Of a stretch of DNA of 40,143 nt, positions 3,507 through 36,661 are shown piece by piece. How positions within the stretch are numbered: the first letter of the stretch is position 1; each line of letters opens with the position of its first letter. Location: positions 1 to 40,143 of the forward strand of contig JAGCRY010000198.1 of NCBI GenBank assembly GCA_017964465.1, written 5' to 3'. Source of the DNA: Bacteroidales bacterium. GTDB taxonomy: Bacteria; Bacteroidota; Bacteroidia; Bacteroidales; UBA3824. Below the pieces are notes generated by a model. The model made no database searches, had not been told where the DNA came from, and saw nothing but the letters and a program-made list of their open reading frames with translations. The position numbers were made by a program, and so were the translations under genes.

Positions 3507-3574
3507 GCCGCATGATGCGCACTTTCCGCAATTAGCAAGGTTTTATACCAAACATTATTCAACGAAGTAGAGTG

Positions 3575-5629: not shown

Positions 5630-5693
5630 TAGAGACAAAGACCACACATTATATAATATATAAGGCAAGTTAACAATATAAACACGATATATT

Positions 5694-6203: not shown

Positions 6204-6215
6204 TAGGACGCAAGA

Positions 6216-7067: not shown

Positions 7068-7149
7068 TGCAGAGAAGGCTTTGAAGAAAATGAATAATGA
7101 CAGGAAAAACTCAATTATATAAGGTACAGGCATTTTAAACCAGAATATT

Positions 7150-8052: not shown

Positions 8053-8077
8053 ATGTAGGTGACAAAAACGCAGTGAT

Positions 8078-8545
8078 ATGACAAGACATTTTCTATATCC
8101 GTCCACGATGTTCGCATCGGCACAGCCAGCCGAGGTCACGACGATACTCGGTTCGTGTGTTGCGGTGTGTCTCTGGGACAGATATCTTGGCATCGGCGGC
8201 ATCAACCATTATATGCTCCCTACGTGGAACGGCATGGAACTCGCCTCGCCTAAGTATGGCAACATCGCCATCGAGAGGCTGACGGAACGTATGTTGCAGT
8301 TAGGATGCAAGAAGAACAACCTCGTCGCCAAGGTTTTTGGCGGGGGCGAAGTGATTACGGTTTCGTCTTCTACCATGCACATCGGCGAACGCAACATCAT
8401 GGTTGCCGAGGAGATGCTGTCGGAACGTAACATCCCGATTATCGGACGCTCGACAGGCGGCAAGAACGGGAGGAAAATCATATTCAACACACATACCGGC
8501 GAGGTGCTGCAGTGCTACATAAAAAACAGCATGGGAGGCAGATGA
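8078..8545 (+). CDS. cheD: Chemoreceptor glutamine deamidase CheD
   Basis: This is a 155-residue enzyme that deamidates receptor glutamines to glutamates. The catalytic triad pattern known for CheD is present: T21 and C27 in TTILGSCVAVCLWD, and H44 in GGINHYMLP. Further family features are VFGGGEV at about 104-110 and RSTGGKNGRKIIFNTHTG near the C-terminus. It stands between the kinase-like gene and cheB. CheD usually works on methyl-accepting proteins and, in some bacteria, with CheC; no cheC is visible here. Confidence 0.95.
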   Translation: MTRHFLYPSTMFASAQPAEVTTILGSCVAVCLWDRYLGIGGINHYMLPTWNGMELASPKYGNIAIERLTERMLQLGCKKNNLVAKVFGGGEVITVSSSTMHIGERNIMVAEEMLSERNIPIIGRSTGGKNGRKIIFNTHTGEVLQCYIKNSMGGR

Positions 8546-8563
8546 AGCCTTTAGCCGGCATGA

Positions 8564-9670
<1,107 letters not shown>

Positions 9671-19966: not shown

Positions 19967-19990
19967 AGGGAATCCCTGAAGGCATGCGGC
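19945..19990 (+). promoter_or_regulatory. Structured leader RNA before xusA
   Basis: An inner hairpin at 19961-19983 pairs GCCT with AGGC and AGGG with CCCT around an AAT loop, with a GA/GA internal mismatch. An outer stem pairs GCCGC (19945-19949) with GCGGC (19986-19990). An alternative hairpin pairs AGCGCA with TGCGCT at about 19939-19957, and it would compete with the outer stem. Two competing structures overlapping a small reading frame suggest possible attenuation. Confidence 0.4.
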
Positions 19991-20061
19991 ACACAAGCAA
20001 CATGCTTCACAACACAAGAACAATCAACTATTTTTATTTCTTCAAACAAAATTTATATTCA

Positions 20062-23000
20062 ATGAAACAATCAATTAACTTAAGGAGGTTTGTACTGCTC
20101 CTTTTCCTAATGATGTTCTCGCTGGATCTGCTTGCGCAGGTCATAGTGTCGGGCACCGTGACGGACGAGGACGGCAACACGCTTCCTGGTGTAAATGTGT
20201 TTGAAAAGGGTAGTGCCAATGGTACTATCACGGACCTGGACGGCAAGTACCGGCTTAGTGTAAAGAGCGGAGCCACGATCACGTTCAGCTACATCGGCTG
20301 CCAGGACCAGGAGTTCACCGTTTCAGGCACAAGGACAATCAACGTAACGCTCAAAGAAGACACGCAAGAAATTGAAGAGGTCGTTATCGTGGGTTACGGT
20401 CAGCAGAAGAAAGCGTCGGTCGTAGGCGCTATCACGCAGACCTCCGGCGAGACCTTGCAGCGTGCAGCGGGCGTATCCAACCTCGGTGCAGCCCTCACGG
20501 GTAACCTCCCGGGCGTTGTAACGGAGCAGGGCACAGGTATCCCTGGCGGTGAAGACCCCAAGATTACCATCCGTGGTGCAAGCTCTTGGAACAGCTCCGA
20601 CCCGCTCGTCCTCGTGGACGGTATCGAGCGTGAAATGAAATCCGTGGATGTTTCCTCCGTGGAGAGCATCTCGGTACTCAAAGACGCTTCCGCAACCGCC
20701 GTTTATGGTGTGCGTGGTGCAAACGGCGTTATCCTTATCACCACAAAGCGTGGTGAGGAAGGCAAGGCTCGTATTAATGTGGGCTTCACATCCACAATGA
20801 AGACTCCCTCCAAGCTTCCTAACAAGCTGGATGCTTACGACGCTCTCATCGCCCGTAACAAGACCATCGAGATGGAGCTTCCAATCGCTGCAGTGGCAGA
20901 AAACTCCTGGGCATACATCACCCCGATGTCGGAGATTGCCAAGTACCGCAATACCGATCCCGAGGCAAAGGACGAAAAAGGCAACCTCATCAGCGAGCGT
21001 TATCCTAATATCGACTGGCAGGATGTCCTCTTCAAGGATTTCGCTGCAAGCTACAATGCAAACCTCAACATCAGCGGTGGTAGCAAGGTCGTAAGGTACT
21101 TCGCTGCAGCAGACTACGCAAACGAAGGCGACCTTATGCACATTTTCGACAATGGTCGTGGTTACACAACCGGTTATGACTACAACCGTTTGAATGTTCG
21201 TTCAAACCTCGACTTCACCATCACAAAATACACAGTATTAAAGGTGAACCTCGCAGGCTCGCTGGCAACCAGCAAGCGTCCCCGTATGAACCAGGGCGAC
21301 TCTTGGCAGGAGGCTCAGCGTTGGGCTGGTGCATACAACATCGCTCCTGACGTTTTCGTTCCGCAGTATTCCAATGGTGGCTGGGGTTATTACCCGCAGG
21401 TATCCAATGTATCAAACTCCGTAGAGAACGCCGCTACTTCTGGTATGGCTAAAAACACCACAAACACAATCACAACAGACTTCAACCTCGAGCAGGATTT
21501 GAGCTTCCTTACAAAGGGTCTCAATCTTCGCGGTACAATCTCTTGGGATAATAGGTTTGAGGACAATGGTCGTGGTATCGCTGACGACTTCAACGACACA
21601 CACCGTATGTGGATCGACCCCAAGACTGGCGAAGTTTACAATAATAAAGACGTCGATTTCAACACCGGCTTCGACTGGGTTGAGACTCCGCAGTGGCGTG
21701 CAAACGACGGCAACGCCGGCTCTACTTATCGTCGTCTCTTCTATCAGGGACAGTTGAACTACATGCGCAAGTTCGGCGACCACGAAATCGGCGGCATGGG
21801 CGTGTTCAAACGTGAGGAAAGCGCATTCGGCAGCGAACTTAAGAGGTATCGTGAGGAATGGGCATTCCGTGCAACCTACAACTTCAAGGGCCGCTACTCA
21901 ATCGAGTATAACGGCTGCTACAACGGCTCAGAGAAATTCTCCGAAAAACACCGTTTCGCATTCTTCAATTCAGGCGGTGTAAACTGGACACTTTCAGAAG
22001 AACCCTTCATGGCTTCCATCAAGGATCATGGCTGGGTTGAAATCTTGAAATTCCGTGCTTCTTACGGCGAGGTCGGCGACGACAACGGTGGAGCTCGTTG
22101 GCTCTATATGTCGCAGTGGTCGCGCGGCGGCAAGGCTCTTATGGGTAGCGTTTCTGAATCCAACTTCAATGGCTACAGCGAATCAGTACTCGGCAATTAT
22201 GACGTGCATTGGGAGAAATCGCGTAAGTTCAACTTCGGTATCGACTACTCCTTCCTCCACGGCCTCATTGCAGGTAGCTTCGATATATTCAGGGACAGGC
22301 GTAGCGACATCCTTATTTCTGGTGGCGACCGTGCCATTCCTGCTTACTTCGGCGCATCCGCTCCTACTATCAACAAGGGTAAGACCAAAAACAAAGGTTA
22401 TGAGCTCGAGCTTCGTTTGAACAAAGAACTCAGGAGCAAGGGTATGCGTTTCTGGGGCAATATCAATATTTCCCACAGCGAAAATAAGATTATCGAAAAG
22501 GACGACGCTCCATTGCGTCCTAACTACCAGAAACAAGAGGGATACGTTATCGGTCAGGAACATTCCTTCATCGACGCCGGATTCCTTCAGAACATCGACC
22601 AAGTTTATGGCTCGCCCAGGTATGAGAGTGATGACGACTTCCGTCTCCCCGGCTGCTACTACATTGTCGATTTCAATGGCGACGGTCAGATCGACAGCAA
22701 GGACTCCGCTCCTTACGGCTATTCTTCCACTCCTCAGAACACCTACAACGCTACCATCGGTTTCGATTGGAAAGGCTTCAGCTGCTTCGTACAGTTCTAC
22801 GGCGTTACCAACGTAACCCGCGACGTAACCCTCCAGTCTTTCGGCAACAAGCTCAACACTGTGTATGACCTCGGTTCTACCTGGTCTGTTGACAATCCGA
22901 ACGCCGAAATGACCTACTACCACTGGAGCACTGCATCCGTGAGCAAGTATGGCGGCGCGTTCCCCTCGTATGGTTCGCAGTTTAAGTTTGATGGCTCGTT

Positions 23001-23220
23001 CATCCGTCTTAAGAACATTGAGTTTGGATACACATGGTATGACAAGTCGTGGATTAAGCACATCGGCTTCAACTATTTGAAGTTGTTTGTCAACGGCAAC
23101 AACCTCTGGCTCTGGACCCGCATGCCTGACGACCGCGAATCCAACCTCGGTGGCGCTGGCTACACCGGTGCTTATCCTACTGTTAAGCGTTTCAACGTGG
23201 GTATTAGGTTCTCACTCTAA
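20062..23220 (+). CDS. xusA: SusC-family TonB-dependent transporter (XusA-like)
   Basis: This is a 1052-residue outer-membrane transporter. Start 20062 gives a clean signal peptide (MKQSINLRRFVLLLFLMMF, cut after LLAQ); an upstream ATG at 19984 adds polar sequence and is rejected. A carboxypeptidase-like regulatory domain (about 25-105, VSGTVTDEDGNTLPGVNV) is followed by a TonB-box-like EEVVIVGYGQQKK. The plug (about 115-245) contains the typical SVESISVLKDASATAVYG and GANGVILITTKRG. The beta barrel ends in FNVGIRFSL. It imports oligosaccharides with its SusD partner 17 bases downstream. The order of this operon matches xusA-E of xylan-degrading Prevotella and Bacteroides, so xylan fragments are the expected substrate. 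Confidence 0.93.
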   Translation: MKQSINLRRFVLLLFLMMFSLDLLAQVIVSGTVTDEDGNTLPGVNVFEKGSANGTITDLDGKYRLSVKSGATITFSYIGCQDQEFTVSGTRTINVTLKEDTQEIEEVVIVGYGQQKKASVVGAITQTSGETLQRAAGVSNLGAALTGNLPGVVTEQGTGIPGGEDPKITIRGASSWNSSDPLVLVDGIEREMKSVDVSSVESISVLKDASATAVYGVRGANGVILITTKRGEEGKARINVGFTSTMKTPSKLPNKLDAYDALIARNKTIEMELPIAAVAENSWAYITPMSEIAKYRNTDPEAKDEKGNLISERYPNIDWQDVLFKDFAASYNANLNISGGSKVVRYFAAADYANEGDLMHIFDNGRGYTTGYDYNRLNVRSNLDFTITKYTVLKVNLAGSLATSKRPRMNQGDSWQEAQRWAGAYNIAPDVFVPQYSNGGWGYYPQVSNVSNSVENAATSGMAKNTTNTITTDFNLEQDLSFLTKGLNLRGTISWDNRFEDNGRGIADDFNDTHRMWIDPKTGEVYNNKDVDFNTGFDWVETPQWRANDGNAGSTYRRLFYQGQLNYMRKFGDHEIGGMGVFKREESAFGSELKRYREEWAFRATYNFKGRYSIEYNGCYNGSEKFSEKHRFAFFNSGGVNWTLSEEPFMASIKDHGWVEILKFRASYGEVGDDNGGARWLYMSQWSRGGKALMGSVSESNFNGYSESVLGNYDVHWEKSRKFNFGIDYSFLHGLIAGSFDIFRDRRSDILISGGDRAIPAYFGASAPTINKGKTKNKGYELELRLNKELRSKGMRFWGNINISHSENKIIEKDDAPLRPNYQKQEGYVIGQEHSFIDAGFLQNIDQVYGSPRYESDDDFRLPGCYYIVDFNGDGQIDSKDSAPYGYSSTPQNTYNATIGFDWKGFSCFVQFYGVTNVTRDVTLQSFGNKLNTVYDLGSTWSVDNPNAEMTYYHWSTASVSKYGGAFPSYGSQFKFDGSFIRLKNIEFGYTWYDKSWIKHIGFNYLKLFVNGNNLWLWTRMPDDRESNLGGAGYTGAYPTVKRFNVGIRFSL

Positions 23221-23237
23221 AAAACTGATTCTAAAAA

Positions 23238-25190
23238 ATGAGAAATATACATAATAAAATACTAATTGGTGCAGCGGGGCTCGCGTTGATGGCTATGGCC
23301 ACATCGTGCGACTCTTATCTCGACAAGGCTCCGGATACCACAATCACCGCTGAGGAGGCTTTCAAGGACTTCAACAGTTTCCAGGGATATGTGGAAGGCA
23401 TCTATAATGCAATTCCTGACAAGGAGAAATGCCACTGGTGTCCTTCATGGAACTGGGGCGACGATGAGCTGATGAACCCCGAGGCTGACGACCGTTTCAC
23501 ACACCAGTCCGACCTCGGCAACTTCAAGGCTTGGCAGGAAACGGGCAACTGGCTCTATCATTCCACCGACGGCAACGGCGGCTATCACTTTGGTCGATTG
23601 TGGACGGAAGGATGGGGCGCAATCCGCAGGTGCAACATGACCATCGCCAACATCGACCAGATGGTGGGCACAAAAGAGGAGAGGGACCTTCTCCTCGGAC
23701 AAGCATACTTCTTCCGTGGCTGGTTCCATTTCGAGATGATGGAATTCTTCGGCGGACTCCCGTACATCGACAAAGTTTTTGAAGACGGAATGGAGTTCAA
23801 AGAGAAACGTCTCTCTTATCGTGAATGTGCCGACAAGGCGGCTGCCGACTTCAGGATGGCTGCCGACATCCTCCCGATTAACTGGGACCAGACCGTGGTT
23901 TCATCCCAATACGGTTTGGACGGCAAAAACAGGCTGCGTGTAAACAAGATTACCGCTCTCGGCTATCTTGGTAAAAACTACCTCTGGGCAGCTTCTCCGC
24001 TCATGGAGCACGGCGCAATGGTAGGTGCCAGCACCACAGGAGAAACCTACAAGTACAACACGGAATATGCACAGAAAGCTGCTAAAGCCTTCAAGGAGTT
24101 ACTTGACCTCGTGGAGAGCGGACAGACACAGTATGCGCTCGTAGAGTTCAATTTCGACGACACCCCTGGTGCAGACGGCGTGGCTCGTGGCATCTATGAC
24201 CACACCAAGGCTTCTTCAGCCAAGACATGCTATTCCGACCTCTTCTACACAGTTGGTAACAACTGGCTCATGCCTGGCTCGACCGAGGCTATCATGCAGG
24301 GTCTTTCTGGTGAAAACGGTCAGGCCAACAACTGTAACTGGAACACATCGAAGGTGTTCGGTCCTAAGGTTGCCGGTCTCGTGGAGCATGATAACGTTAT
24401 CCACATGCCAACCGCCAACCTCGTAGATCAGTACGGCATGGCAAACGGCTTGCCTCTCGACGATCCCGCATCGGGATTTGACCCCAAGCACCCCTTCAAG
24501 GATCGTGACCCAAGGTTCTATCATGACATCGTGTTCGACGGTTTTAAGTATGTGAATGCGGAAGGTCTTGAAGAATCCAAGGAATATCTGCGTTACTGCA
24601 GCCTCTACACCGGCGGCGCAATGCGCGACCAGGCTCACGCAAGTCAGACCGGCTACTTCATCCAGAAGCTCGTACCCCACACATGTAACATCGGCGACAA
24701 GGATTATGACTATCCGCGTGCGTTCCACTGCTACATCCCCTTCATGCGTCTTGCAGATATCTACTTGATGTATGCTGAGGCATCGGCTGCATCAGGTGAT
24801 GAAGCTACGGCAGTCGCTGCTGTAAACAAGATTAGGACACGTTGTGGTGCAGGCGAAGTTGGTGCCAATTACCGCTCAGGCGAAAAGCTCATGGACGAGA
24901 TTCGCCGCGAACGTGCTGTGGAGCTCTCTTTTGAAGGTTTCCGCTATAACGACCTCCAGCGTTGGCTTCTCCTTACCGAACCGAAATACATGGTTAAGTA
25001 TTCTCATGAGTTCGACCGCAAGGAAAAGGAAGAATTCTTCAAGACCCATGATCCGAAGGATGCTGAGGTCGCTAATTTCAGGAAGAAGGAGATTCTTACC
25101 CGCAAGCTCACGGCAAAACACTATTGGTTCCCGCTGCCTGAATCTCAGGTATATCTCTATCCTGAATTTGAGCAGAATCCGGGCTGGTAA
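23238..25190 (+). CDS. xusB: SusD/RagB-family surface lipoprotein (XusB-like)
   Basis: The 650-residue lipoprotein has a lipobox at MATSC with lipidated Cys about residue 24, then DSYLDKAPDT, the usual SusD start. The N-terminal TPR helices include GYVEGIYNAIPDKEK and LLGQAYFFRGWFHFEMMEFF. The C-terminal SusD signature is YLMYAEASAASGDEATAV with EIRRERAVELSFEGFRYND, ending in the conserved FEQNPGW. It binds glycan on the surface as the lid of the SusC barrel encoded upstream. Aromatic residues are abundant, but the binding platform cannot be assigned without a model. Confidence 0.93.
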   Translation: MRNIHNKILIGAAGLALMAMATSCDSYLDKAPDTTITAEEAFKDFNSFQGYVEGIYNAIPDKEKCHWCPSWNWGDDELMNPEADDRFTHQSDLGNFKAWQETGNWLYHSTDGNGGYHFGRLWTEGWGAIRRCNMTIANIDQMVGTKEERDLLLGQAYFFRGWFHFEMMEFFGGLPYIDKVFEDGMEFKEKRLSYRECADKAAADFRMAADILPINWDQTVVSSQYGLDGKNRLRVNKITALGYLGKNYLWAASPLMEHGAMVGASTTGETYKYNTEYAQKAAKAFKELLDLVESGQTQYALVEFNFDDTPGADGVARGIYDHTKASSAKTCYSDLFYTVGNNWLMPGSTEAIMQGLSGENGQANNCNWNTSKVFGPKVAGLVEHDNVIHMPTANLVDQYGMANGLPLDDPASGFDPKHPFKDRDPRFYHDIVFDGFKYVNAEGLEESKEYLRYCSLYTGGAMRDQAHASQTGYFIQKLVPHTCNIGDKDYDYPRAFHCYIPFMRLADIYLMYAEASAASGDEATAVAAVNKIRTRCGAGEVGANYRSGEKLMDEIRRERAVELSFEGFRYNDLQRWLLLTEPKYMVKYSHEFDRKEKEEFFKTHDPKDAEVANFRKKEILTRKLTAKHYWFPLPESQVYLYPEFEQNPGW

Positions 25191-25223
25191 ACCTACTTTA
25201 TACATGAATTTAAACTAATCAAA

Positions 25224-28200
25224 ATGAGACATATACACAACAGTTTAATTATATGCGCTGCCTTGGCTACCGTGCCTTTCGCTACGGAAGTTAAGGCGGA
25301 GGTGGCCAGCACGGTGGCATCGGCTGCTTTCGAAAGCAACGCGCCTCTTGCCGATTCGCCTATGGAGGACATCCTGGTGAAAGGTAGGGTGGTGGACGAG
25401 GAGGGCAACCCGCTCCCCGGCGTCACGGTTGCTGTGTCAGGTACAACAAGGGGCACAATCTCTGACGTAAACGGCAATTTCGAAATCAATGCGCCAGAAG
25501 ATGCCGTCCTTTCGTTCTCCTTCAGGGGTTTTTACCCGATGCAGGTGGATGTCAGCGGTCGCGAGGAACTCGGCGACATCGTGCTTACTAAGGACTTGAA
25601 CGCTGGTCTTATCGACCTTCCCTACCGCAAGGTCAATGAGAACGACCTCATTGGAAGTGTGTCATACGTCAATGTCGTTGACAAAATGGAGACCAACTAC
25701 ACTACAGCCACGTTTGATAACATGGAGACGTATGTAGGTGGTTGGAATGGCTCGACGCTTTGGGGCATGAGCAATGAAAACTCGAGCTACTTCGTAGTTA
25801 TCGACGGTTGCCCCCGTGGTCTTACGGGACATGAAAACCTCATTCCTACGGAAATTGAGTCTATCACATTCCTCAAAGGTGCCGACGCTGTCGCTTTGTA
25901 CGGCAGCCGTGGCGCAAAGGGTGCAATCCTCATCACTACAAAGCGTGGTAAGGTAAGGGACGGCCTCGAAATCAACAGCCGCGTCGTGACCGGCTTCCAT
26001 GTTGCAAAGAGGTTCCCGCAGTACCTTTCGTCCGCAGAGTACATGTCGCTCTACAATGAGGCTCGCAAGTCTGACGGCGAGCAGCCCTTGTACACTGATG
26101 AGGACATCTACAACTATGGTTCTCACAAGAACATCTACCGTTATCCCGACATTGACTACTATTCGGACGAGTATGTTAGCAAGATGTACAATCACACCGA
26201 CGCTAACCTCGAACTCGTAGGCGGCAGCCAGAGGGCTCAGTATTACGGTAGCATCAACTACTGGACTGAAGGCGACTACCTCAAGGTAGGCGACTCCGAG
26301 GACAACCGCACTCACCGTTATAGCGTTCGTGGTAATGTGGATGTTAAGGTTGCCGACTTCATCAAGGCATACATCAACGCAAACGCCACATTCTACGACG
26401 TTAAGACCGCCAGCAACGCAAACTGGTGGGAGTCCGCAGCAACCAGAAGGCCAAGCGGCAACAGGACTGGTATCAGTGCACCAATGATTCCGGTTTCCAT
26501 GGTGGACCCGAACAATCAGAGTGTTCTCGACCTCCTTTCCACGACATCCAACATTTATGATGGAAAGTTCCTCGCTGGTACATCCCAGGAGAAGACATCG
26601 GTGTTTGGCGACATGTACGTCATCGGAGAAAGGAAGTTCACCATCCGTAAGTTCCAGTTTGACGCTGGTCTCGATTTCGACCTCTCATCTCTCTTGCCTG
26701 GCCTTTCTTTGAAGACTGTCATGGGCATGGACTTCTCTACACAGTATGTGACAGCCTTCAACAATGGTTACGGCGTATTCGTTCCCACATGGGGTTCTTA
26801 CAATGGTAAGGAATATATCGTTGACCTCGTAATGGAAGGTGAAGATTCTCACACTGGCTCTCAGAACGTTTCGGATTCCAGGGTTGACCGTATGATCAGT
26901 GTTGCTGCCTACTTCGACTATGCAAGGAGCTTCGGCAAACACAATGTTCACGCAATGTGGCTTGCCAGCGGTTCTCAGCAGACTACAGTTGGTACTTACC
27001 ACAGCGATTGTGGTGCACACATGGGATTCTTTGCTGGTTACAATTACGACCACAAGTACTTCTTGGACTTCAGCTCGGCTATCGTTCACTCCGTTCGTCT
27101 TGCTGAAGGACATCGCAACGCATTCTCACCCTCTGTAACTGTTGCATGGGATCTTGCAAAAGAATCCTTCCTGAACGGTTCGTTTGTTGACAAACTCCAG
27201 CTCGAAGGCTCTGCAAGCATCATCAATGAGGACTATGACGTTGTATATGACAACACCAAGTATTACCTCTACAATGGTGCTTGGGGTACAAACGCCTACA
27301 GCTTCACATACGGCGACGGTAAAAACGCAACTGGCGTTTCTCCTACCCGTGGCAACAATGACGAACTCAGGATGGTTCAGCGCAAGGAAGTACGTGGCGG
27401 TCTTCGTACATCGTTCCTCAATGGCATGTTCACTCTTACCGGCAACTATTTCGCAAACGACATGGACGGCTACCTCATCCTCAACGGTAGCGACTTGCCT
27501 GACCACATGACCCACTTCCTGGCTGTTCGTAACAACAACATCGTACATCGCACAGGTTTCGATTTCGAGTTCACGTTCAACAAGAAGTTTGGTGAAGTTG
27601 ACCTCTCTTTGGGATTCAACGGAACCCACTACACATCAGAGCGTACCAAATATGACGAGACTCCCAAATACGATTATCTCGCCAGGGAAGGTCGAGAAGA
27701 AGATGCTGTTTGGGGCTATAAGTGCTTAGGCATCTTCCAGAGCCAAGAGGAGATTGACAATGCTCCTGTTCAGAACCTTGGTTCCAAACCCAGACCAGGC
27801 GACCTCAGGTATGCTGACTTGAATGGTGACAACAAGATTGATGCTGACGACCAGAAGTGTCTTGGTGTGAATGGTACTTACGGTGCTCCCACCTCCCTTG
27901 GTTTCAATCTCGTTGCAAAATGGAGAGACTTCTCGTTCTTCGTTGCAGGAAGGAGTATCATGGGTGCCACCAAATTTAAGAATGGCTCCTCTTACTACAA
28001 GATGGAACAGGAAAGCAAGTATTCTGTGATTGCACGTAACAGCTGGCGTGAGGACAATCCGGGCGCCAAGTATCCGCGCATCTCCTCAAAGACCAACGCA
28101 AATAACTACGTTCAGTCTGACTTCTGGAGCTTCAAGCAGGATGTGTTCTATCTTGACAAGATTCAGATTTCCTACCAGCTTCCCGCACGCCTCTTCGCTG

Positions 28201-28343
28201 GTTCATTCGTGAAAGGCGTATCGGTATTCGCATTGGGTTCTGGATTGCTTACAGTATCGTCCGAAAGTGAATGGCTCGAGCTCAACATCGGAGGCAAGCC
28301 TCAGTCGCGTTATTACGGACTCGGTGTTCAAGCCAAATTCTAA
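25224..28343 (+). CDS. xusC: Second SusC-family TonB-dependent transporter (XusC-like)
   Basis: This is a 1039-residue outer-membrane transporter. The signal peptide ends near EVKAEVA. An unusual Ala/Ser-rich stretch (about 25-48) precedes the regulatory domain (VKGRVVDEEGNPLPGVTVA). The plug contains IESITFLKGADAVALYGSR and GAKGAILITTKRGK, and the barrel ends in YYGLGVQAKF. A canonical VVxVGYG TonB-box segment is not seen; the region is LTKDLNAGLIDLPYRKV instead, so TonB contact may differ. The sequence is clearly different from the first SusC, so this is not a recent duplication. It pairs with the SusD protein 18 bases downstream. Confidence 0.92.
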   Translation: MRHIHNSLIICAALATVPFATEVKAEVASTVASAAFESNAPLADSPMEDILVKGRVVDEEGNPLPGVTVAVSGTTRGTISDVNGNFEINAPEDAVLSFSFRGFYPMQVDVSGREELGDIVLTKDLNAGLIDLPYRKVNENDLIGSVSYVNVVDKMETNYTTATFDNMETYVGGWNGSTLWGMSNENSSYFVVIDGCPRGLTGHENLIPTEIESITFLKGADAVALYGSRGAKGAILITTKRGKVRDGLEINSRVVTGFHVAKRFPQYLSSAEYMSLYNEARKSDGEQPLYTDEDIYNYGSHKNIYRYPDIDYYSDEYVSKMYNHTDANLELVGGSQRAQYYGSINYWTEGDYLKVGDSEDNRTHRYSVRGNVDVKVADFIKAYINANATFYDVKTASNANWWESAATRRPSGNRTGISAPMIPVSMVDPNNQSVLDLLSTTSNIYDGKFLAGTSQEKTSVFGDMYVIGERKFTIRKFQFDAGLDFDLSSLLPGLSLKTVMGMDFSTQYVTAFNNGYGVFVPTWGSYNGKEYIVDLVMEGEDSHTGSQNVSDSRVDRMISVAAYFDYARSFGKHNVHAMWLASGSQQTTVGTYHSDCGAHMGFFAGYNYDHKYFLDFSSAIVHSVRLAEGHRNAFSPSVTVAWDLAKESFLNGSFVDKLQLEGSASIINEDYDVVYDNTKYYLYNGAWGTNAYSFTYGDGKNATGVSPTRGNNDELRMVQRKEVRGGLRTSFLNGMFTLTGNYFANDMDGYLILNGSDLPDHMTHFLAVRNNNIVHRTGFDFEFTFNKKFGEVDLSLGFNGTHYTSERTKYDETPKYDYLAREGREEDAVWGYKCLGIFQSQEEIDNAPVQNLGSKPRPGDLRYADLNGDNKIDADDQKCLGVNGTYGAPTSLGFNLVAKWRDFSFFVAGRSIMGATKFKNGSSYYKMEQESKYSVIARNSWREDNPGAKYPRISSKTNANNYVQSDFWSFKQDVFYLDKIQISYQLPARLFAGSFVKGVSVFALGSGLLTVSSESEWLELNIGGKPQSRYYGLGVQAKF

Positions 28344-28361
28344 ATTGTTAATTAAGGTAAT

Positions 28362-30083
28362 ATGATGAAACTAAATAAAATATTGACTGTTTCGGCTGTC
28401 GCCGCGCTCATGCTCACGAGCTGCGACGATATGTTTGAACCTGCCATAGAGCAGCACCCAGACTTCGAACAGCAGATTGTGGCAAATCCTTCATATTTCT
28501 ATGGTCTGTTGATGACGCCCTATTCCAAGTTCAATGACCAGAATACATTCTTCGCGCATCGTGTTCACGAGGATTTCGCCACGAGCGACTTCTATTGTGA
28601 CCAGTCGTTCAATGACGCCAAAAACTGGATTCTCATGGGTCGTGGCAGCTGGACGGCAAAAGAGAACCCGGTGGACAAGTGGACGGATGTTAGGGAATCC
28701 ATGCAGTACATCAACATCTTCCTCGAGAACATGGACAGGGTTACATGGTCGAAGAACAAGGAAAACAACGATAAGTTCAAGAAACGTCTCACCGGCGAGG
28801 CATACGCATTGCGTGGCATTCTCAATTACTTCTTCCTCCGTGCCCATGCGGGCTATGTGGACGGCGAGAGCCGGATGATGGGTATTCCAATCCTCACTTC
28901 CTCTGAGGACGTCAATTCCGACTTTAATCTTCCCAGGCAGACCTTTAAGGCTTCCTTGGATCAGATTATGGAGGACCTCGACGCTGCGATTGGTTACCTT
29001 CCTGAAGTTTACACTGGCAATGACCTCGTAAATGGCCAGGGTCGTAACGGCCTTATCAACGGTACAATCGTTAGGGCTATGAGGTCTGAGGTTGCACTCA
29101 TGGCGGCAAGCCCGCTTTTCGCAGCTGAAAGTGGCATTTCATGGCAGCAGGCTGCTGACTATGCCGCTGAAGTGCTGAAAGGACACACCATTGTTCCTAA
29201 TGGCCACACATGGTACTGCCACACAGCAGAAATCAACGCTCTTAATGAAGGTGCGTTGCCTCCCGAGGTAATATGGAGGGGCGACCGTACTGGTGAAAAC
29301 GACGTTGAATATGAGAGGCATGCATATCCCCCGAGCCTTTATGGCAACGGTCGTTTTAATCCCACCCAGAACCTCGTGGATGCGTTCCCGATGGCTAACG
29401 GTTATCCTATCACAGCCTCTGGAAGCGGCTATGACCCACAGAAGCCATACGACAACCGTGACCCGAGGCTCGACACCTACATCATCCACCATGGCAGCTC
29501 GTTCAAGGGTACTACTATCAACGTAAGCCCCGACGACAACACCAACAAGGATGGTTTGAACAGGTCTGGTGCTACTTTCACTGGCTACTATCTCAAGAAG
29601 TTCATGAATGAGGACGTTGACCCGAACACTTCAAAGCCGAACGGTCGTCGTCACTACAAGGCTCGTCTCCGCTACACCGAGATCTTCCTCAATTATGCCG
29701 AGGCACAGAACGAGGCAGCTGGACCTCAGTCAACTGGTACTTTGGGTATGTCGCCCTACGACATTGTGAAGGCTATCCGTCAGCGTGGTGGCATCACAAA
29801 CGACCAGTACCTCGAGTCCATCAAGGGTGACAAGGACAAGATGCGTGAGCTCATCCACAACGAGCGTCGTATCGAGCTCATGGGCGAAAACTTCCGTTTC
29901 TGGGATCTTCGCCGCTGGAAAGAGCCGCTTAACGAGACTGTTAAGCGTATGAACGTCACCAATGGCAAGTTCAATGTGGAGACTATCGACGATCTCCGTT
30001 ACGAAGACTACATGTATTTTGGCCCCATGCCAGAAAAAGAAGTCCTCAAATGGTCCAACCTCAAGCAAAATCAAGGTTGGTAG
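28362..30083 (+). CDS. xusD: Second SusD/RagB-family surface lipoprotein (XusD-like)
   Basis: The 573-residue lipoprotein has a lipobox at LMLTSC, with Cys about residue 21 and then DDMFEPAIEQ. TPR helices are visible, for example LTGEAYALRGILNYFFLRA. The C-terminal SusD signature includes EIFLNYAEAQNEAAG and NERRIELMGENFRFWDLRRW, ending in LKQNQGW. ATG 28365 is an equally possible start. It pairs with the second SusC protein. The next gene follows after 27 bases without a terminator. Confidence 0.92.
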   Translation: MMKLNKILTVSAVAALMLTSCDDMFEPAIEQHPDFEQQIVANPSYFYGLLMTPYSKFNDQNTFFAHRVHEDFATSDFYCDQSFNDAKNWILMGRGSWTAKENPVDKWTDVRESMQYINIFLENMDRVTWSKNKENNDKFKKRLTGEAYALRGILNYFFLRAHAGYVDGESRMMGIPILTSSEDVNSDFNLPRQTFKASLDQIMEDLDAAIGYLPEVYTGNDLVNGQGRNGLINGTIVRAMRSEVALMAASPLFAAESGISWQQAADYAAEVLKGHTIVPNGHTWYCHTAEINALNEGALPPEVIWRGDRTGENDVEYERHAYPPSLYGNGRFNPTQNLVDAFPMANGYPITASGSGYDPQKPYDNRDPRLDTYIIHHGSSFKGTTINVSPDDNTNKDGLNRSGATFTGYYLKKFMNEDVDPNTSKPNGRRHYKARLRYTEIFLNYAEAQNEAAGPQSTGTLGMSPYDIVKAIRQRGGITNDQYLESIKGDKDKMRELIHNERRIELMGENFRFWDLRRWKEPLNETVKRMNVTNGKFNVETIDDLRYEDYMYFGPMPEKEVLKWSNLKQNQGW

Positions 30084-30110
30084 TAATGTTGGACATCAAA
30101 AAATTCTAAA

Positions 30111-31154
30111 ATGATGAAAATTAAGAATCTAATATTGACAATGACGGCTGGTGCCATGATTTGCGGCGGATTATCTTCGTGTAAGAACGCAGACGTGGAG
30201 TTCCCGGATTCCGACGGCGGCATCAACGTCTTTTTCTCATACCAGAATCCGATTCGCACGATCGTCCTGGGCGACATCACCACTACCGACAACTCTGGCG
30301 ACAACGAGCATCGCTTCTCGGTTTACGCTACAATGGGTGGCGCATACCACGGCAGAAATATCGATGTTCAGGTTGATATTGATGAATCGCTCGTCAATGG
30401 ACTTTCATTCCCTGACGGTACAAAACCTGAAGCGCTTCCGAGCAACTACTACACCCTCAGTGGCAAGACTATCAGCTACAATGGAAAACTCCAGGCATGT
30501 ATCGACGTTCAGCTCAACGACGCCTTCTTCAACGACACGAAAGCCGTGGAGGAGCACTTTGTGCTGCCTGTTGTCATAAAAGACGTAACCGCTGGCTACA
30601 ACATCCTCTCCGGCACACCGGCTCAGGGCGGAAAAAACATCCGTCAAAACCCTGCGGACTGGATTGTCGCTCCTAAGGACTACACGCTCTACATGGTCAA
30701 CTTCATCAACAAGTATCACGGCTCCTATCTCCGTCGTGGCACCGATGTAATTACATCTGGCGGTTCCTCCAAAAATGTGGAGCGCAAGAAGGAATTCATT
30801 GAGTGGGACGAGGTTGTAAAACTCACTACAAAGTCGCTTAATGAGGATGTGATTACCATCACGGGACTTGTTGACAATGGCGAACCTGTCAGCTGCGACT
30901 TGCTTTTGACATTCGACAACAACAATAAGTGTACGATTTCGTCCCTCACCCCTGGCTACACAGCCTCCGGCACGGGCGAGTTCAAGACAAAGTCGGAAAT
31001 CAAGGCGTGGGGCGACAAGGATCGCGACGGCTTGTACCTCGACTACACCATCAATCTCGGAAGCACTACATACAAGACAAGCGACATATTAGTTGCTCGC
31101 GACCGTGGTACTGTTACTTCCGTCCGTGAGTTTGATGTATCATACAAAGATTAA
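30111..31154 (+). CDS. xusE: XusE-like surface glycan-binding lipoprotein (DUF1735/DUF5627 type)
   Basis: This is a 347-residue lipoprotein with a lipobox at GGLSSC (Cys about 24) followed by KNADVEF. The N-terminal half (about 30-170) is a beta domain of the DUF1735 type (NVFFSYQNPIRTIVLGD, EHFVLPVVIKDVTAGYNIL). The C-terminal half (from about 190, YTLYMVNFINKYHGSYLRR) fits the DUF5627 region. Proteins in this position of xylan loci are accessory glycan binders on the outer surface. Assignment rests on domain pattern and gene order after the two SusC/D pairs; binding of xylan is inferred. Confidence 0.78.
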   Translation: MMKIKNLILTMTAGAMICGGLSSCKNADVEFPDSDGGINVFFSYQNPIRTIVLGDITTTDNSGDNEHRFSVYATMGGAYHGRNIDVQVDIDESLVNGLSFPDGTKPEALPSNYYTLSGKTISYNGKLQACIDVQLNDAFFNDTKAVEEHFVLPVVIKDVTAGYNILSGTPAQGGKNIRQNPADWIVAPKDYTLYMVNFINKYHGSYLRRGTDVITSGGSSKNVERKKEFIEWDEVVKLTTKSLNEDVITITGLVDNGEPVSCDLLLTFDNNNKCTISSLTPGYTASGTGEFKTKSEIKAWGDKDRDGLYLDYTINLGSTTYKTSDILVARDRGTVTSVREFDVSYKD

Positions 31155-31166: not shown

Positions 31167-31219
31167 ATTGGATAGGACGCGCCGTGAAGCCGGTTGCTAT
31201 GCGGCGCATCCGTTCCAAT
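31167..31219 (+). other. Intercistronic stem-loop between xusE and the GH10-like gene
   Basis: ATTGGA (31167-31172) pairs with TCCAAT (31214-31219), and GCGCCG (31179-31184) with CGGCGC (31202-31207), forming a two-tier stem. No T-run follows, so it is more likely an RNA stability or processing element than a terminator. Confidence 0.4.
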
Positions 31220-31238
31220 TAATCAAGACAGACAAATT

Positions 31239-33464
31239 ATGAAGTTAAATAATAAATGGCTTTGGGCTTTGCTTCCGGCAGCGATTTTGTCGTCATGTGC
31301 TGAGGATAAATTTGACAGCTATTCAATCCCTGAGCCGGCAAGCCTTGCTGAGACCAAGTTCCTCGCAGAATACAAGGTTCTCAAGGACTACAACGTAGGA
31401 GTTCCGCTCGGCGCTGTAGTGGATGTGTCTGAATATACAAGTAAGGGACTTGTTTACGGACTTACCAGTACAAACTTCGATGAAGTTACAGCTGGCAAGA
31501 AGTTCATGCACGGTGCTTTGGTAAAGAATGCTGGTAATGTGAACGTCGGTATTCTCTCGGATTTCATAAAGAGCGCTGAGTCCGCCGGTCACAAGGTGTT
31601 TGGCTCGACCATCCTCAGTAATCTTGATCAGAATACCACGTACCTCGGCACGAAGGGCATCCTTGCATCTCATACTGATCCAAACGCCTCGGGCGGTGTC
31701 CTGACCGAGCTGAAATGGGTTGAGTTGGTTGCCAACGGCGATTGTGAAGGCGACAGCAACGAGTCCTTGTTCTGGACCGTCGCCCAACAAGGTCCAAGCA
31801 ACGCCACAATCACAAGTGGTGCTGGCAAGGACGGTTCCAAGTGTATCGTACTCAACGCCACTGCCAAGGTATCTCAGGCGTGGGACAACCAGTTCTTCAT
31901 CAAATTCTCGGAATCGTTGCCAAACGGTACAAAGTATAAGCTCAAAATGGACATCAAGGCCGCCACTGCTGCCTCAGGCATTGCCTCCCAGGCGCATGCA
32001 AATCCGAGCGAATACATTGCTCATGGTACTTTCGGCACGGTTGATTTCACGACCGACTGGAAAACTTACACAAATGAAGGAACAATCCCCTCTGATGGTG
32101 TACAGTCTATCGCCTTAAACCTCAATGACTTTGCCGATGCAAACACCTACTATTTTGACAACATCTCGTTTGAGGCTGAAGTAGAAAGGGAGGCTGATCC
32201 GTTCTATTGGGAGAACATCGTTTCTAACAGCGACTGCGAAGGCGAAAGCGTAGAGTCTTTCTTCAGTACTATTGCACAGGCTGGACCAAATAGCTCAACC
32301 ATTTCGAGCGGCGTTGGCAAGGACGGCTCACGTTGCGTCGTTGTCAATGCAACTGCAAAGGTAGCTAACGAATGGGACAACCAGTTCTTCATCAAGTTCA
32401 CCGAGCCGTTGGCAAATGGTACTAAGTACAAGTTCACGATGGACTACAAGGCTGATGTAGCTGCTTCTGGCATTCCAACCCAGTCTCATTCGCAGCCAAG
32501 TGCCTATATCGCCCATGGTACTTTTGGCACTCTGAATTTCACAACCGATTGGCAGACATATACTAACGAAGGTACGTTAGGTGTTGATGGATGTCAGTCT
32601 ATCGCCTTCAACCTCAATTCATTTGCTGATGCTAACACATATTATTTCGACAATATTGTGTTTGAGATTGAGAAGGAGCATGTTGTTGGTATTCCGCTTA
32701 CTGCCAAAGAGAAACATGACACCGTTAAGTATGCCCTCGACAACTACATTAAGAATGTAATGGAGGCTAACAAAGGTTATATCACATCTTGGGACATTTT
32801 GGGCAATATGTTTACAGACAATGGCGCTTTGGACACAGAAGAAGCTGACAATAAGTTCCTTTGGGCTTCATACCTCAACGGTCCCGACATGGACGGTTCA
32901 AATCCCAATGAGTACATACAGCTTGCTTTCAAGTTGACCCGCGAATACTTCGCTGCAAACGGCGGAAATGAAGCAGACCTCAAACTCTTCCTTAATGAGG
33001 AAGGTCTCGACAAGGCTGCCAAACTCAATGGTGTCACAAAACAGCTCACCACATGGGAGCAGGACAAATCTGTCAAGTTCGACGGCATAAGCACCAGCAT
33101 CACAGCATCTTACAGCGAGGACGCAAGCGCCCTCAATGCTGAAAAGAAGAAAGTGGAGGATTTGTTTACGGCACTTGCTAAGACGGGCAGGCTCATCCGC
33201 ATTTCCGGCATCACGCTCGATTACAAGGACGCATCCGACCAGGCTGTATCTGCTAAGGACATGAGCGTTGAGCAGGGCAAGCAGATGGGTACGTTCTATG
33301 CATTCATTGTTCAGAAGTACAAAGAGCTCATTCCGGCTAACCAGCAGGCTGGCTTGTACATCAGCAACATCTTCGACAACGGAGACACACCTTGCGGTCT
33401 CTGGAATCAGAGCAACAACTCCCGCAAGCCCCAGTACGGCGGCTTTGCAGATGGTTTGCAGTAA
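31239..33464 (+). CDS. GH10-like lipoprotein with two inserted CBMs and no catalytic residues
   Basis: The 741-residue lipoprotein from ATG 31239 has a lipobox at AILSSC (Cys20). A GH10 N-terminal half lies at about 45-140, two duplicated CBM4-like modules at about 159-316 and 324-478, and a GH10 C-terminal half at about 486-741. This is the layout of Xyn10C-type xylanases in the same position of xus operons. The active site is gone: WDVVNEA of GH10 reads WDILGNM (Glu becomes N523), SELD reads SGIT (Glu becomes G657), GTQMH reads STSIT (His becomes T622), and GHTLxWHS reads GSTILSNL. The fold is retained over its full length without stops. It is therefore most likely a binding protein on the cell surface rather than a xylanase. 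Confidence 0.85.
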   Translation: MKLNNKWLWALLPAAILSSCAEDKFDSYSIPEPASLAETKFLAEYKVLKDYNVGVPLGAVVDVSEYTSKGLVYGLTSTNFDEVTAGKKFMHGALVKNAGNVNVGILSDFIKSAESAGHKVFGSTILSNLDQNTTYLGTKGILASHTDPNASGGVLTELKWVELVANGDCEGDSNESLFWTVAQQGPSNATITSGAGKDGSKCIVLNATAKVSQAWDNQFFIKFSESLPNGTKYKLKMDIKAATAASGIASQAHANPSEYIAHGTFGTVDFTTDWKTYTNEGTIPSDGVQSIALNLNDFADANTYYFDNISFEAEVEREADPFYWENIVSNSDCEGESVESFFSTIAQAGPNSSTISSGVGKDGSRCVVVNATAKVANEWDNQFFIKFTEPLANGTKYKFTMDYKADVAASGIPTQSHSQPSAYIAHGTFGTLNFTTDWQTYTNEGTLGVDGCQSIAFNLNSFADANTYYFDNIVFEIEKEHVVGIPLTAKEKHDTVKYALDNYIKNVMEANKGYITSWDILGNMFTDNGALDTEEADNKFLWASYLNGPDMDGSNPNEYIQLAFKLTREYFAANGGNEADLKLFLNEEGLDKAAKLNGVTKQLTTWEQDKSVKFDGISTSITASYSEDASALNAEKKKVEDLFTALAKTGRLIRISGITLDYKDASDQAVSAKDMSVEQGKQMGTFYAFIVQKYKELIPANQQAGLYISNIFDNGDTPCGLWNQSNNSRKPQYGGFADGLQ
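31713..32672 (+). repeat. Duplicated CBM-coding segment
   Basis: Two in-frame modules of about 155 residues (31713-32186 and 32208-32672) are clearly similar. Both have SDCEG or GDCEG starts, WDNQFFIKF, YIAHGTFGT, TTDW-TYTNEGT and FADANTYYFDNI. They represent an internal duplication of a CBM4-like domain, and the strong sequence match suggests a fairly recent event or continued selection. Confidence 0.85.
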
Positions 33465-33666: not shown

Positions 33667-35505
33667 ATGAAAAAACTACTTATTTTATCACTTGTAGCGT
33701 TGTGCTGCATGACTACGATGTCATGTGGCGACGACGATGACCCTGTTGACAACAACAACGACAACCCCTCAAACACCACTCCCGGAGGCGACAACGGTAA
33801 CGGTAACAACTCCGGTGACAACAACGGCGGCAACACCACCGAAAACAAGCCGAATTTGACGGCTCCTGCGCTCCATATCAAGAATAACAAGGTTTCAAAG
33901 GAGTTTTGGCAGGTTCAGTACCAGGTTGCCTCCAACCTCAACCTTACAAAAGGCAAGGAGTATGAAATAGCTATCAGGGCTATGGCTTCGGATAATGCCA
34001 CCCTCCGTTTCCGTATCGGTGACTGGGGCGACAATGTCGTTGACCTGTCTATTGATGTAACCAAGGAAATGCAGGAATACAAACAGACCTTCACTGCAGC
34101 TGGTGGTGGACACGTGCTCTTCCAGACCGGCGATTTCGTTGGTGACATCTATGTTGAGAGCGTGAAAATCACCCACAAGGGTAAGGTTCGCGAGCTCACT
34201 GATGAAGAAAAGCGTGACACACTCATCTGGGCTATGGACCATTGGATTGAGGGCGTCATGACTGCTACTGATGGTTTCGTGAAGGCATGGGACGTCGTAA
34301 ACGAGGCACTTTCGGGTAACGACGGCGACGGCGACGGTCTCTATGACCTCCAGAACTACAAGAACAACAACATCTCTGACCCCACAAACGTGCAGTCGGG
34401 TACTTTCTATTGGCAGGTTTACATGGGCGACCTCGAGTACGTCCGCACGGCTGTCAAGAGTGCACGTAAGCACTTCAAGGGCGACCCCAGCGAACTCAAG
34501 CTTTTCATCAACGACTACAATCTCGAGTCCACATGGGATGACAACCAAAAACTCAAGAGCCTTATCAAGTGGATTGACAAGTGGGAAGCAGACGGCGAGA
34601 CCTACATCGACGGTATCGGCACACAGATGCACATTTCCTGCTATGCGGACGCCGGACTTCAGAGGGATGCTGAAGATCACATCGTGAAGATGTTCCAGCT
34701 CATGGCTGAAACAGGACGTCTTGTTCGTGTATCCGAACTTGACATGGGCTATGTACGCGGCTCCAACAAGTGGGGCGGAAACATTCAGACCAGCCAAGTT
34801 ACCGCAGTTGAGCATCAGCAGATGGCTGATTTCTACGAGTTCATCCTCAGAAAATACTTTGAAATCGTTCCTCCTGCACAGCAGTATGGTTTCTGCCAGT
34901 GGTGTACGACCGACGCTCCGAGCGGCGGCGGATGGCGCGGTGGCGAGCCTGTAGGTATTTGGACAGAAGGCTACAGCGCAAGGAAGGCGGCATACAAAGG
35001 CTTCGCTCAAGGTCTTGCAGAGAAGGAGCTCGAAGGCGACGTGAAGGATCTTATGCCCTTGAAGATGTACGTTGACCGCTCAAAGCACCCGCTCTTCAAG
35101 TTCAGCGGCGCAATCGAAGCATGGGATTTCAATAGCCAAGCCAAGCTCCGTGACACCATCGCTGCTAACTTTGACGAAATCGTGGCAGGCAACTCTATGA
35201 AGTACTCCTCTTGCGTGAATGGCAGTGGCGAACTTAACTTCAGCACTGTTACACAATTCTGTGACGCTGCAAAGGCTAAGGGTCTCACCATCTACGGTCA
35301 CACCCTCGCATGGCACTCTCAGCAGCAGCCCGGCTATCTCCTCGGTCTCATGAACAAGGTTGAGGTTGATGTACCGGATTCTGAGAAGGAAGAAGTTTCC
35401 GATTGCGACATGACTTACAAAGGCATGAGGAGCTACAACATGTGGAAGTCTGACAACAACGCAAGCGACAATATTGACTACTCGATTGATTTCGTTCAAC
35501 CGTAA
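33667..35505 (+). CDS. Circularly permuted GH10 endo-xylanase lipoprotein
   Basis: This is a 612-residue lipoprotein: lipobox TTMSC (Cys20), then GDDDD and an Asn/Gly/Thr linker to about 62. Residues 62-172 match the later part of a CBM4-like module. Residues 173-452 are the C-terminal half of GH10 with acid/base E213 (WDVVNEAL), GTQMH (318-322) and nucleophile E357 (VSELD). Residues 465-565 are the N-terminal half of GH10, with FDEIVAGNSMK at 502-512 and GHTLAWHSQQ at 544-553. Residues 566-612 resemble the first strands of the same CBM. The order is thus inverted relative to normal GH10, but one complete domain is present with intact catalytic residues. It should cut the xylan backbone at the cell surface. 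One uninterrupted reading frame encodes it. Confidence 0.88.
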   Translation: MKKLLILSLVALCCMTTMSCGDDDDPVDNNNDNPSNTTPGGDNGNGNNSGDNNGGNTTENKPNLTAPALHIKNNKVSKEFWQVQYQVASNLNLTKGKEYEIAIRAMASDNATLRFRIGDWGDNVVDLSIDVTKEMQEYKQTFTAAGGGHVLFQTGDFVGDIYVESVKITHKGKVRELTDEEKRDTLIWAMDHWIEGVMTATDGFVKAWDVVNEALSGNDGDGDGLYDLQNYKNNNISDPTNVQSGTFYWQVYMGDLEYVRTAVKSARKHFKGDPSELKLFINDYNLESTWDDNQKLKSLIKWIDKWEADGETYIDGIGTQMHISCYADAGLQRDAEDHIVKMFQLMAETGRLVRVSELDMGYVRGSNKWGGNIQTSQVTAVEHQQMADFYEFILRKYFEIVPPAQQYGFCQWCTTDAPSGGGWRGGEPVGIWTEGYSARKAAYKGFAQGLAEKELEGDVKDLMPLKMYVDRSKHPLFKFSGAIEAWDFNSQAKLRDTIAANFDEIVAGNSMKYSSCVNGSGELNFSTVTQFCDAAKAKGLTIYGHTLAWHSQQQPGYLLGLMNKVEVDVPDSEKEEVSDCDMTYKGMRSYNMWKSDNNASDNIDYSIDFVQP

Positions 35506-35531
35506 CATTATCACCTAAGTCATTAATTATT

Positions 35532-35560
35532 GTAGAGACGTGTCCATGACACGTCTCTAC
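35532..35560 (+). terminator. Perfect palindromic hairpin after the xylanase gene
   Basis: A perfect 13-bp stem (35532-35544 with 35548-35560, GTAGAGACGTGTC and its complement) with a CAT loop is followed by TTTTTAACTCTTTT. It fits an intrinsic terminator 26 bases after the stop. The symmetric sequence also resembles dispersed palindromic repeats, so a genome-wide copy number would tell. Confidence 0.7.
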
Positions 35561-35578
35561 TTTTTAACTCTTTTGAAA

Positions 35579-36661
35579 ATGAAAAAAATCTTAATAGCAT
35601 CACTGTTCGCAGCATTGTTATTCCCATGCTGTGGCGATGACGACGATAAAGAAGAACCTGCAAAGGAAAATAACACCGAAAACACAACTCCCGCCAACGA
35701 GACGAACCAAAACGGAAATGAAACAAAGCCCAATGAGGTAGAGCCGTCTCTCGATGACAGCGAAAACAAGAACAATGAGGAAAACACCAAGCCCACCACG
35801 CCTGTCAGCGACGAGACTGATATAGAAGTCAACGAGGAACTCCAAAAGGTTATCCAAGGCAAAGAAGAATATGCAAAACTCAATGTGTTCCTCTGCTTCG
35901 GACAGTCAAACATGGAAGGCAATGCTTCCGTTGGTTCAAAAGACAAGACCAACGTCCCCGACAATTTCAAGAACATGATTGTTGCCAAAGGTGACGCCGA
36001 CCATTACAATCAGGAGCGCTACACATGGCGCAAGGCGAACCCGCCGCTCGCACGTTTTTCAACTGGACTTACTCCCGCCGACTATTTCGCACGCACTCTT
36101 TGCCAGTATCTGCCCGAAGGTGGTGAGATTGGTATCGTCATGGTGGCAATTGGTGGCACGTCCATCGAGGCATTCTATAAGGAGTCCTGTGAGGAATTCT
36201 GTAACAAGAGCGACCATGCCGACTGGCTCAAAGGCTTCTATGCACAGTATGACAACAATCCATACCAGACCCTCATCGACGCAGCAAAAGAGGCTCAGAA
36301 GACTGGCGTAATTCGCGGCATCCTCTTGCATCAGGGCGAGACAAACAACGGCGACCCCAACTGGCCTGATAATGTTAAAGGTATCTATGACAACATCATT
36401 GCCGACCTTGGGCTCGACCCTGCACAATGTCCCTTGCTCGTGGGCGAGACATTGAGGCAGGATCAGAAAGGTGGGTGTTATCAGCATAATGCAGTGGTAG
36501 CAAAAGTGCCGTCTGTAATTCCAAATTCTTATGTAATCTCGTCGGAAGGCTGTCCTGGCAACGGTCAAGATCCGTGGCATTTCTCCGCAAGGGGCTACAG
36601 GATGTTGGGCAAGAGATACGCCGAGAAGATACTTGAACTCTGGAGCGCAAATGTTGAGTAA
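35579..36661 (+). CDS. CE6-like acetylxylan esterase lipoprotein (SGNH hydrolase)
   Basis: This is a 360-residue lipoprotein from ATG 35579: lipobox ending PCC (Cys18), then GDDDD and an acidic Asn/Glu/Thr-rich linker to about 85. The SGNH hydrolase domain covers 95-360. The block I serine S110 is in FGQSNMEG, HQGE lies at 251-254, and the catalytic pair D331-x2-H334 is in DPWHFSARGY. This matches the sialate-O-acetylesterase fold used by CE6 esterases, which remove acetyl groups from xylan. Its place between two xylan-related enzymes supports that substrate. A start at 35540 would run through the hairpin and is rejected. Confidence 0.85.
   Translation: MKKILIASLFAALLFPCCGDDDDKEEPAKENNTENTTPANETNQNGNETKPNEVEPSLDDSENKNNEENTKPTTPVSDETDIEVNEELQKVIQGKEEYAKLNVFLCFGQSNMEGNASVGSKDKTNVPDNFKNMIVAKGDADHYNQERYTWRKANPPLARFSTGLTPADYFARTLCQYLPEGGEIGIVMVAIGGTSIEAFYKESCEEFCNKSDHADWLKGFYAQYDNNPYQTLIDAAKEAQKTGVIRGILLHQGETNNGDPNWPDNVKGIYDNIIADLGLDPAQCPLLVGETLRQDQKGGCYQHNAVVAKVPSVIPNSYVISSEGCPGNGQDPWHFSARGYRMLGKRYAEKILELWSANVE

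Follow-up and report, generated by a model that had tools for sequence, protein, structure and literature searches.

How the two halves of a glycoside hydrolase family 10 (GH10) xylanase come to stand in exchanged order within a single reading frame is the question raised by one gene of the window, the whole 40,143-nucleotide stretch of Bacteroidales DNA analysed here (contig JAGCRY010000198.1). The open reading frame (ORF) at 33667-35505(+) starts with ATG and encodes 612 amino acids in a single frame with no internal stops. Judged from its sequence, it is one complete Xyn10C-like GH10 xylanase with a family 4-type carbohydrate-binding module (CBM), in circularly permuted order. As GH10 is a family defined by sequence homology and not by chain order, the circular permutant is a topology variant inside it. 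The preferred reading, to which a probability of about 0.88 is given, is that of a natural, circularly permuted surface endo-xylanase of the Xyn10C type, which probably arose once in its genus and whose interior segments have been exchanged with normal-order genes.

The exchanged order is apparent in comparisons with the family at large. The Pfam GH10 profile PF00331 matches the protein at 7.7e-44 (150.6 bits, against a curated cut-off of 22.1), the match being split into two stretches of which the best aligns residues 182-445 with profile positions 97-307. In phmmer searches against GH10 structures of the PDB, residues 195-419 fall on chain residues 110-313 and residues 488-555 on chain residues 25-91, i.e. 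they are swapped. Along the protein the barrel runs from β4 to β8 and then from β1 to β3, departing from the linear β1 to β8 order of known GH10 members. All eight β/α units are present, as judged from the coverage of positions 2-147 and 138-543 of a 543-position profile of normal-order relatives (described below) and from an AlphaFold2 model in which every unit has its strand and helix. Both catalytic glutamates stand in GH10 contexts, E213 in WDVVNE and E357 in SELD; NSMK lies at residues 509-512 and GHTLAWHSQQ at 544-553, and NDYN, GTQMH and QWC are also kept. The late part of the CBM gives a sub-threshold Pfam hit (CBM_4_9, E 4.7e-4), and the module matches the BiXyn10A CBM1 structures 4mgs and 4qpw (phmmer against the PDB, E ~1e-14).

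Close relatives in normal order allow a direct test. ‘Twins’ of ~600-630 residues with one CBM, arranged as N-terminal half, CBM and C-terminal half, occur in other species of the genus and in loci L007 and L009; for either half of the barrel, their identity to the window protein is ~57-82%. Since such close twins exist in the same genus, the permutation can be read directly and not via remote motifs. Against a hidden Markov model (HMM) built from seven of them, with its 543 positions, the window protein yields two swapped pieces (909.5 bits), which become one uninterrupted match (929.5 bits) once the chain is reordered. The same is true of all five complete permuted genes known here: two swapped matches (roughly 138-543, then 2-149) sum to 827-948 bits, and reordering turns them into one continuous match of 846-971 bits. 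The reordered window chain aligns end to end with the single-CBM twins, its CBM4-type module lying between β3 and α3, which is where the CBM sits in Xyn10C-type enzymes (PMC7848910). A preliminary description of this DNA, made from the letters alone, had proposed a single GH10 with its C-terminal half ahead of its N-terminal half, had named E213, E357, NSMK, GHTLAWHSQQ and GTQMH, and had read the whole as a circular permutation. Pfam, phmmer and the twin HMM bear out the order, the motifs stand where they had been placed, and the twins and the reordering support the permutation. Its further proposal, a cut inside the CBM4-like module, holds for the splitting of the module and for the early strands at residues 566-612; the late strands, which run to residue 172, begin at about residue 68 and not at 62.

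The breakpoints themselves are precise. The joint runs from the old C-terminus, GFAQGLA, to the old N-terminus, LKxYI, and is 13, 13, 13, 13, 13 and 14 residues long in six permuted genes. The termini of a solved member of the family are in contact (PMC2893209), which makes so short a joint plausible. Across the cut point the twins read ...NVDYNITIEDG|LLHITNK..., a turn between two CBM strands. The permuted proteins stop just past the first of these strands, with ends such as DYSIDFVQP, DYILEIVKK, NYSIEIVDR, DYSVSIVKR and DYTVELVKE, and they restart, behind a lipoprotein signal and a tether, just before the second. This end point at the CBM hairpin is identical in all permuted genes. Near the joint and the new termini, six residues (K113, V152, E696, L699, F714 and Q757) are found in 6/6 permuted genes and each in at most one normal-order row. 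The features of a natural permutant are thus both seen, with new termini in a loop and old termini linked by a short joint.

The permuted order is not confined to the window. A search of the genus recovered it in five further species (G016, G013, G003, G015 and G008). In five of the six permuted genes both halves lie in one intact frame, the G008 gene being cut by a contig end. Several assemblies are represented, as are at least two public studies (RGIG, with yak rumen and sheep reticulum genomes, and RUG), and the genome of G003 is 99% complete. Over the aligned part, identity between permuted proteins is 61-72%, the near pair G003/G015 excepted; for that pair, nonsynonymous (dN) and synonymous (dS) divergences of 0.026 and 0.21 indicate purifying selection, synonymous sites being saturated in dN/dS comparisons between subclades. 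The catalytic and motif residues of the window gene are matched in the other permuted genes of the alignment. In this analysis the permuted GH10 is confined to a single genus of rumen Bacteroidales: no permuted relative turned up outside it in ~790 sampled Bacteroidales/Bacteroidota genomes, remote phyla not having been sought. Full-text searches confined to open-licence papers brought up no natural GH10 permutation; in the preliminary description, too, no described GH10 of this order was known.

Permuted and normal-order genes also occupy corresponding places. In G009, G014 and G004 the twin is flanked by a Xyn10C-like gene on one side and a SASA-type esterase on the other, which is the slot of the permuted gene in the window and in G016, and in G011 a normal-order C-terminus precedes the esterase. 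The esterase is likewise a neighbour of the permuted gene in G008. A position in a polysaccharide utilization locus (PUL), after xusC/xusD/xusE-like genes, is found in the window and in G016, only the downstream side being available in G008 (contig end); the G003 and G015 genes are outside any PUL. No genome of the set, in which several are incomplete, holds a permuted gene together with a single-CBM normal twin. Altogether, this looks like a real inherited rearrangement of which both versions still coexist in related species. As separate observations, the permuted genes of G003 (L053:9434-11233(+)) and G015 (L054:9456-11255(-)) stand among housekeeping-type genes with matching surroundings; G013 and G016 (L040, L039) have downstream genes in common, the intervening esterase of G016 being missing from G013; and a related GH10 of G001 (L046:7704-9011(-)) has a 436-residue frame without inserted CBM, so that the module can be lost.

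The AlphaFold2 model of the window protein, made with ten aligned sequences, has a predicted local distance difference test (pLDDT) score of 76.8 and a predicted template modelling (pTM) score of 0.72. Its elements follow one another as CBM strands, α3, β4-β8, β1-β3 and CBM strands, with strands assigned to barrel positions from motifs. In Foldseek and VIA-align searches its CBM matches those of BiXyn10A and PbXyn10C. One VIA-align row (4mgq: Z 15.3, root mean square deviation 2.3, 136 residues, model range 10-557) suggests that both chain ends belong to one CBM; it is not used as proof, the aligner's handling of swapped order being unstated. The model of a normal-order protein is poor (pLDDT 63.5, 3 sequences), and its barrel aligns to GH10s over the whole length (~290 residues, range 1-540).

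Table 1. Parts of the permuted gene and of its surroundings in the window
Feature	Position	Strand	Basis
Xylan PUL core	19984..31154	+	synteny, DUF5627 match, published xus layout
SusC	19984-23220	+	gene order and published xus layout (PMC7848910)
SusD	23238-25190	+	gene order and published xus layout (PMC7848910)
SusC	25224-28343	+	gene order and published xus layout (PMC7848910)
SusD	28362-30083	+	gene order and published xus layout (PMC7848910)
DUF5627/BT_3987-like protein	30111-31154	+	Pfam DUF5627
Xyn10C-like GH10 with inserted CBM-like domains, preceding gene	31194..33464	+	Pfam, motif check
Lipoprotein signal peptide MKKLLILSLVALCCMTTMSC, lipobox Cys20, then GDDDD	33667..33726	+	sequence
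Low-complexity N/G/D-rich tether, 47 residues, leading to the CBM and not to the barrel	33727..33867	+	sequence
Late part of CBM4-type module, residues 68-172, new N-terminal side of the cut hairpin	33868..34182	+	Pfam, PDB search, twin alignment
C-terminal half of GH10 barrel, residues 173-451, α3 to α8	34183..35019	+	Pfam PF00331, motifs, DSSP order of model
Predicted acid/base E213	34303-34305	+	motif position
Predicted nucleophile E357	34735-34737	+	motif position
New 13-residue linker EKELEGDVKDLMP, old C-terminus to old N-terminus	35020..35058	+	twin comparison: absent in normal-order twins
N-terminal half of GH10 barrel, residues 465-565, β1-β3, with NSMK and GHTLAWHSQQ	35059..35361	+	swapped HMM match to twin profile 2-147; PDB GH10 N-terminal segments
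Early part of CBM, residues 566-612, new C-terminus	35362..35502	+	twin alignment
Stop codon	35503-35505	+	
SASA-type carbohydrate esterase, next gene, marks syntenic slot	35540..36661	+	PF03629, 5.8e-32

Other explanations of such a gene differ in what they make of its halves. An artefact of assembly, in which a tandem repeat or a circular sequence had been misjoined, has in its favour that the named relatives are metagenome-assembled genomes and that the window's own genome is 64% complete in 218 contigs; this explanation is effectively refuted, since recurrence in independent genomes together with a homologous 13-14 residue joint excludes misassembly, and six species, several assemblies, at least two public studies, intact frames and conserved neighbours speak to the same effect. 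It is very improbable that the barrel is split between molecules, each half completing a different truncated GH10. Domain swapping is in principle conceivable once a barrel has been opened at an inserted domain, and a second GH10-like gene adjoins, but that gene has both halves and is devoid of catalytic residues; moreover, G003 and G015 contain no other match at E<=1e-20, no isolated GH10 halves lie in the flanks of the permuted genes and no partner halves occur in the genome. The loss of both catalytic glutamates in the adjacent Xyn10C-like gene implies that pseudoenzymes occur in this PUL, and the permuted protein could by analogy be a non-catalytic xylan-binding protein like this upstream neighbour. 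Such a role would be surprising for a gene that keeps both glutamates together with NSMK, GHTLAWH, NDYN, GTQMH and QWC, all of them matched by the other permuted genes.

The number of origins is a more delicate issue. A guaB tree shows permuted and normal species intermingled within three subclades. In a window scan of the alignment, the interiors of permuted genes often match the local normal-order gene best (for the window protein and G002, 0.77 over the first 40 columns, against 0.45 with permuted genes from other subclades; for G003 and G012, 0.82-0.92 over columns 495-575), and the CBM and joint often match permuted genes of other subclades better (the window with G003/G015 over columns 219-305, 0.63 versus 0.41). 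A single permuted clade is rejected for the N-terminal half (P value of the approximately unbiased test, p-AU, 0.0003) and for the middle of the C-terminal half (p-AU 0.0008); the permuted rows do group together in the last 165 columns, with a support of 51/90, and in the edge regions taken jointly, with 62/99. The simplest reading of these sequence patterns would be one permutation event, followed by recombination inside each half with normal-order genes. The alternative of three independent permutations, one per subclade, each from the local normal-order gene and each with the same hairpin and termini, seems unlikely. The likeness of the N-terminal and mid C-terminal segments to same-subclade normal genes and the rejection of one clade suit it, but it needs convergent joints, namely a shared joint of 13-14 residues, a shared end point and six shared residues near joint and termini, and it sits badly with CBM and joint sequences whose nearer counterparts are often the permuted genes of another subclade and not the local normal-order genes.

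Several observations nonetheless weigh against a single-origin permutant built around one closed barrel. The permuted state requires 5 changes on the guaB tree, a scatter also expected from, and here favouring, several independent origins. The edges give a single clade weak support (the values just given), and the edge regions were picked after the window scan. No duplication relics were found beside the permuted genes (tblastn to E 0.01, within 4 kb), which leaves the duplication route a proposal. Finally, Foldseek and VIA-align matches of the model to GH10 barrels are confined to β4-β8 (~residues 119-403), so that sequence conservation and the twins are the grounds on which closure of one barrel is inferred; the structure prediction that had been proposed as a check thus gives all eight barrel strands, with structural matches for β4-β8 only.

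For the single-origin permutant, tandem duplication of a normal-order gene would be the likeliest first step. The C-terminus of copy 1 would have been fused in frame to the N-terminus of copy 2, and the loss of the outer halves would have left the permuted gene. The ancestral termini, close together in GH10 barrels, would thereby have been joined by the 13-residue linker and the new termini opened at the turn of the CBM β-hairpin. After this one origin in the genus, the gene may have spread or persisted across subclades, interior segments being exchanged with normal-order genes while the joint and the new-terminus sequence would have kept their permuted ancestry. A tentative and rather doubtful extension of this scheme would regard permuted and normal genes as interchangeable topological alleles of one genus, which share a locus, swap half-genes by homologous recombination and retain, like inversion breakpoints, a joint and termini of permuted ancestry; the permuted form would be kept because tethering through the CBM changes the position of the enzyme at the cell surface. 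Origin from a mobile element was considered and rejected, with no match among PLSDB plasmids or IMG/VR viral contigs.

The Bacteroidota lipoprotein export signal marks surface exposure, and the signal of the window protein suggests that it is surface-exposed. The cysteine and the acidic residues that follow are similar in complete permuted and normal-order relatives, and the tethers are of similar reach, 28-51 residues from cysteine to CBM in permuted proteins and 32-51 from cysteine to barrel in normal-order twins. The expected fold of the permuted chain is a single CBM with a single barrel, in which E213 as acid/base and E357 as nucleophile would cut xylan as in normal-order Xyn10C. The lipid tether now enters via the CBM rather than the barrel, which would alter the presentation of the enzyme at the cell surface. 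The gene at 31194-33464 follows the xusE-like DUF5627 gene, which is the usual place of xyn10C (cf. PMC7848910); it reads WDILGN for WDVVNE and RISGITLD for RxSELD and is probably, on these motifs, a xylan-binding pseudoenzyme. With both catalytic motifs gone from this neighbour, the endo-xylanase activity of the PUL may come from the permuted enzyme.

Among known systems, the Xyn10C-type GH10/CBM4 xylanases of xus/xylan PULs (PbXyn10C, BiXyn10A, BACOVA_04390 and Pm25; PMC7848910) share with the window protein the interruption of the barrel between β3 and α3, the lipoprotein nature and the PUL position; in the window protein, by contrast, each end of the chain carries a part of the CBM, the old termini have been fused, and it is the CBM that bears the anchor. 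The closest precedent is family GH70, in which GtfB-type enzymes and glucansucrases have permuted barrels with an inserted domain IV made from two distant segments, and GtfC and GtfD are unpermuted (PMC9732880). Both permuted and unpermuted members are thus known there too, but in GH70 the permutation parts whole subfamilies, whereas here both orders occur within one genus and apparently exchange segments. The 1,3-1,4-β-glucanase of the rumen bacterium Fibrobacter succinogenes (GH16; Tsai et al. 2003, cited in PMC2395249) is likewise a naturally permuted plant-polysaccharide glycanase; it differs by its jellyroll, an unrelated fold and family, and by having no inserted CBM at the cut. In an engineered β/α-barrel enzyme (Luger et al. 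1989, cited in PMC2893209) the native termini were joined and the chain opened elsewhere, with correct folding in vivo according to the title; that barrel was man-made and belongs to another enzyme.

Natural permutation itself is already known in other families (GH70, GH16). What the window adds is a real natural permutation of a GH10 xylanase, coexisting with normal-order relatives in corresponding loci. Many natural permutants are known as distant pairs only, so that the start and survival of the permutation are inferred long afterwards. Here, permuted and normal versions, ~60-80% alike in each half, stand in corresponding places in sister species, with both halves and the CBM intact, and the steps become testable: the activity of the permuted allele, recombination across topologies, and the effect on xylan capture of shifting the anchor from barrel to CBM. 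The permutation in GH70 also divided an inserted auxiliary domain, a parallel which suggests that new termini open preferentially in inserted domains. Linear domain annotation tends to report such permuted enzymes as fragments.

Minor features of the region complete the description. A hairpin with a T-run, GTAGAGACGTGTCCATGACACGTCTCTAC (window 35506-35580), lies between the permuted gene and the esterase; a similar one exists in G008 (L050), and none was seen in normal-order G011. Homologues of the gene at 31194-33464, ~42% identical, are found in G002 and G006 (L041:10705-12990(-) and L056:9741-11870(+)). A cluster of CheA-, CheR- and CheB-type genes occupies window positions 3572-9670, ~10 kb before the xylan PUL.
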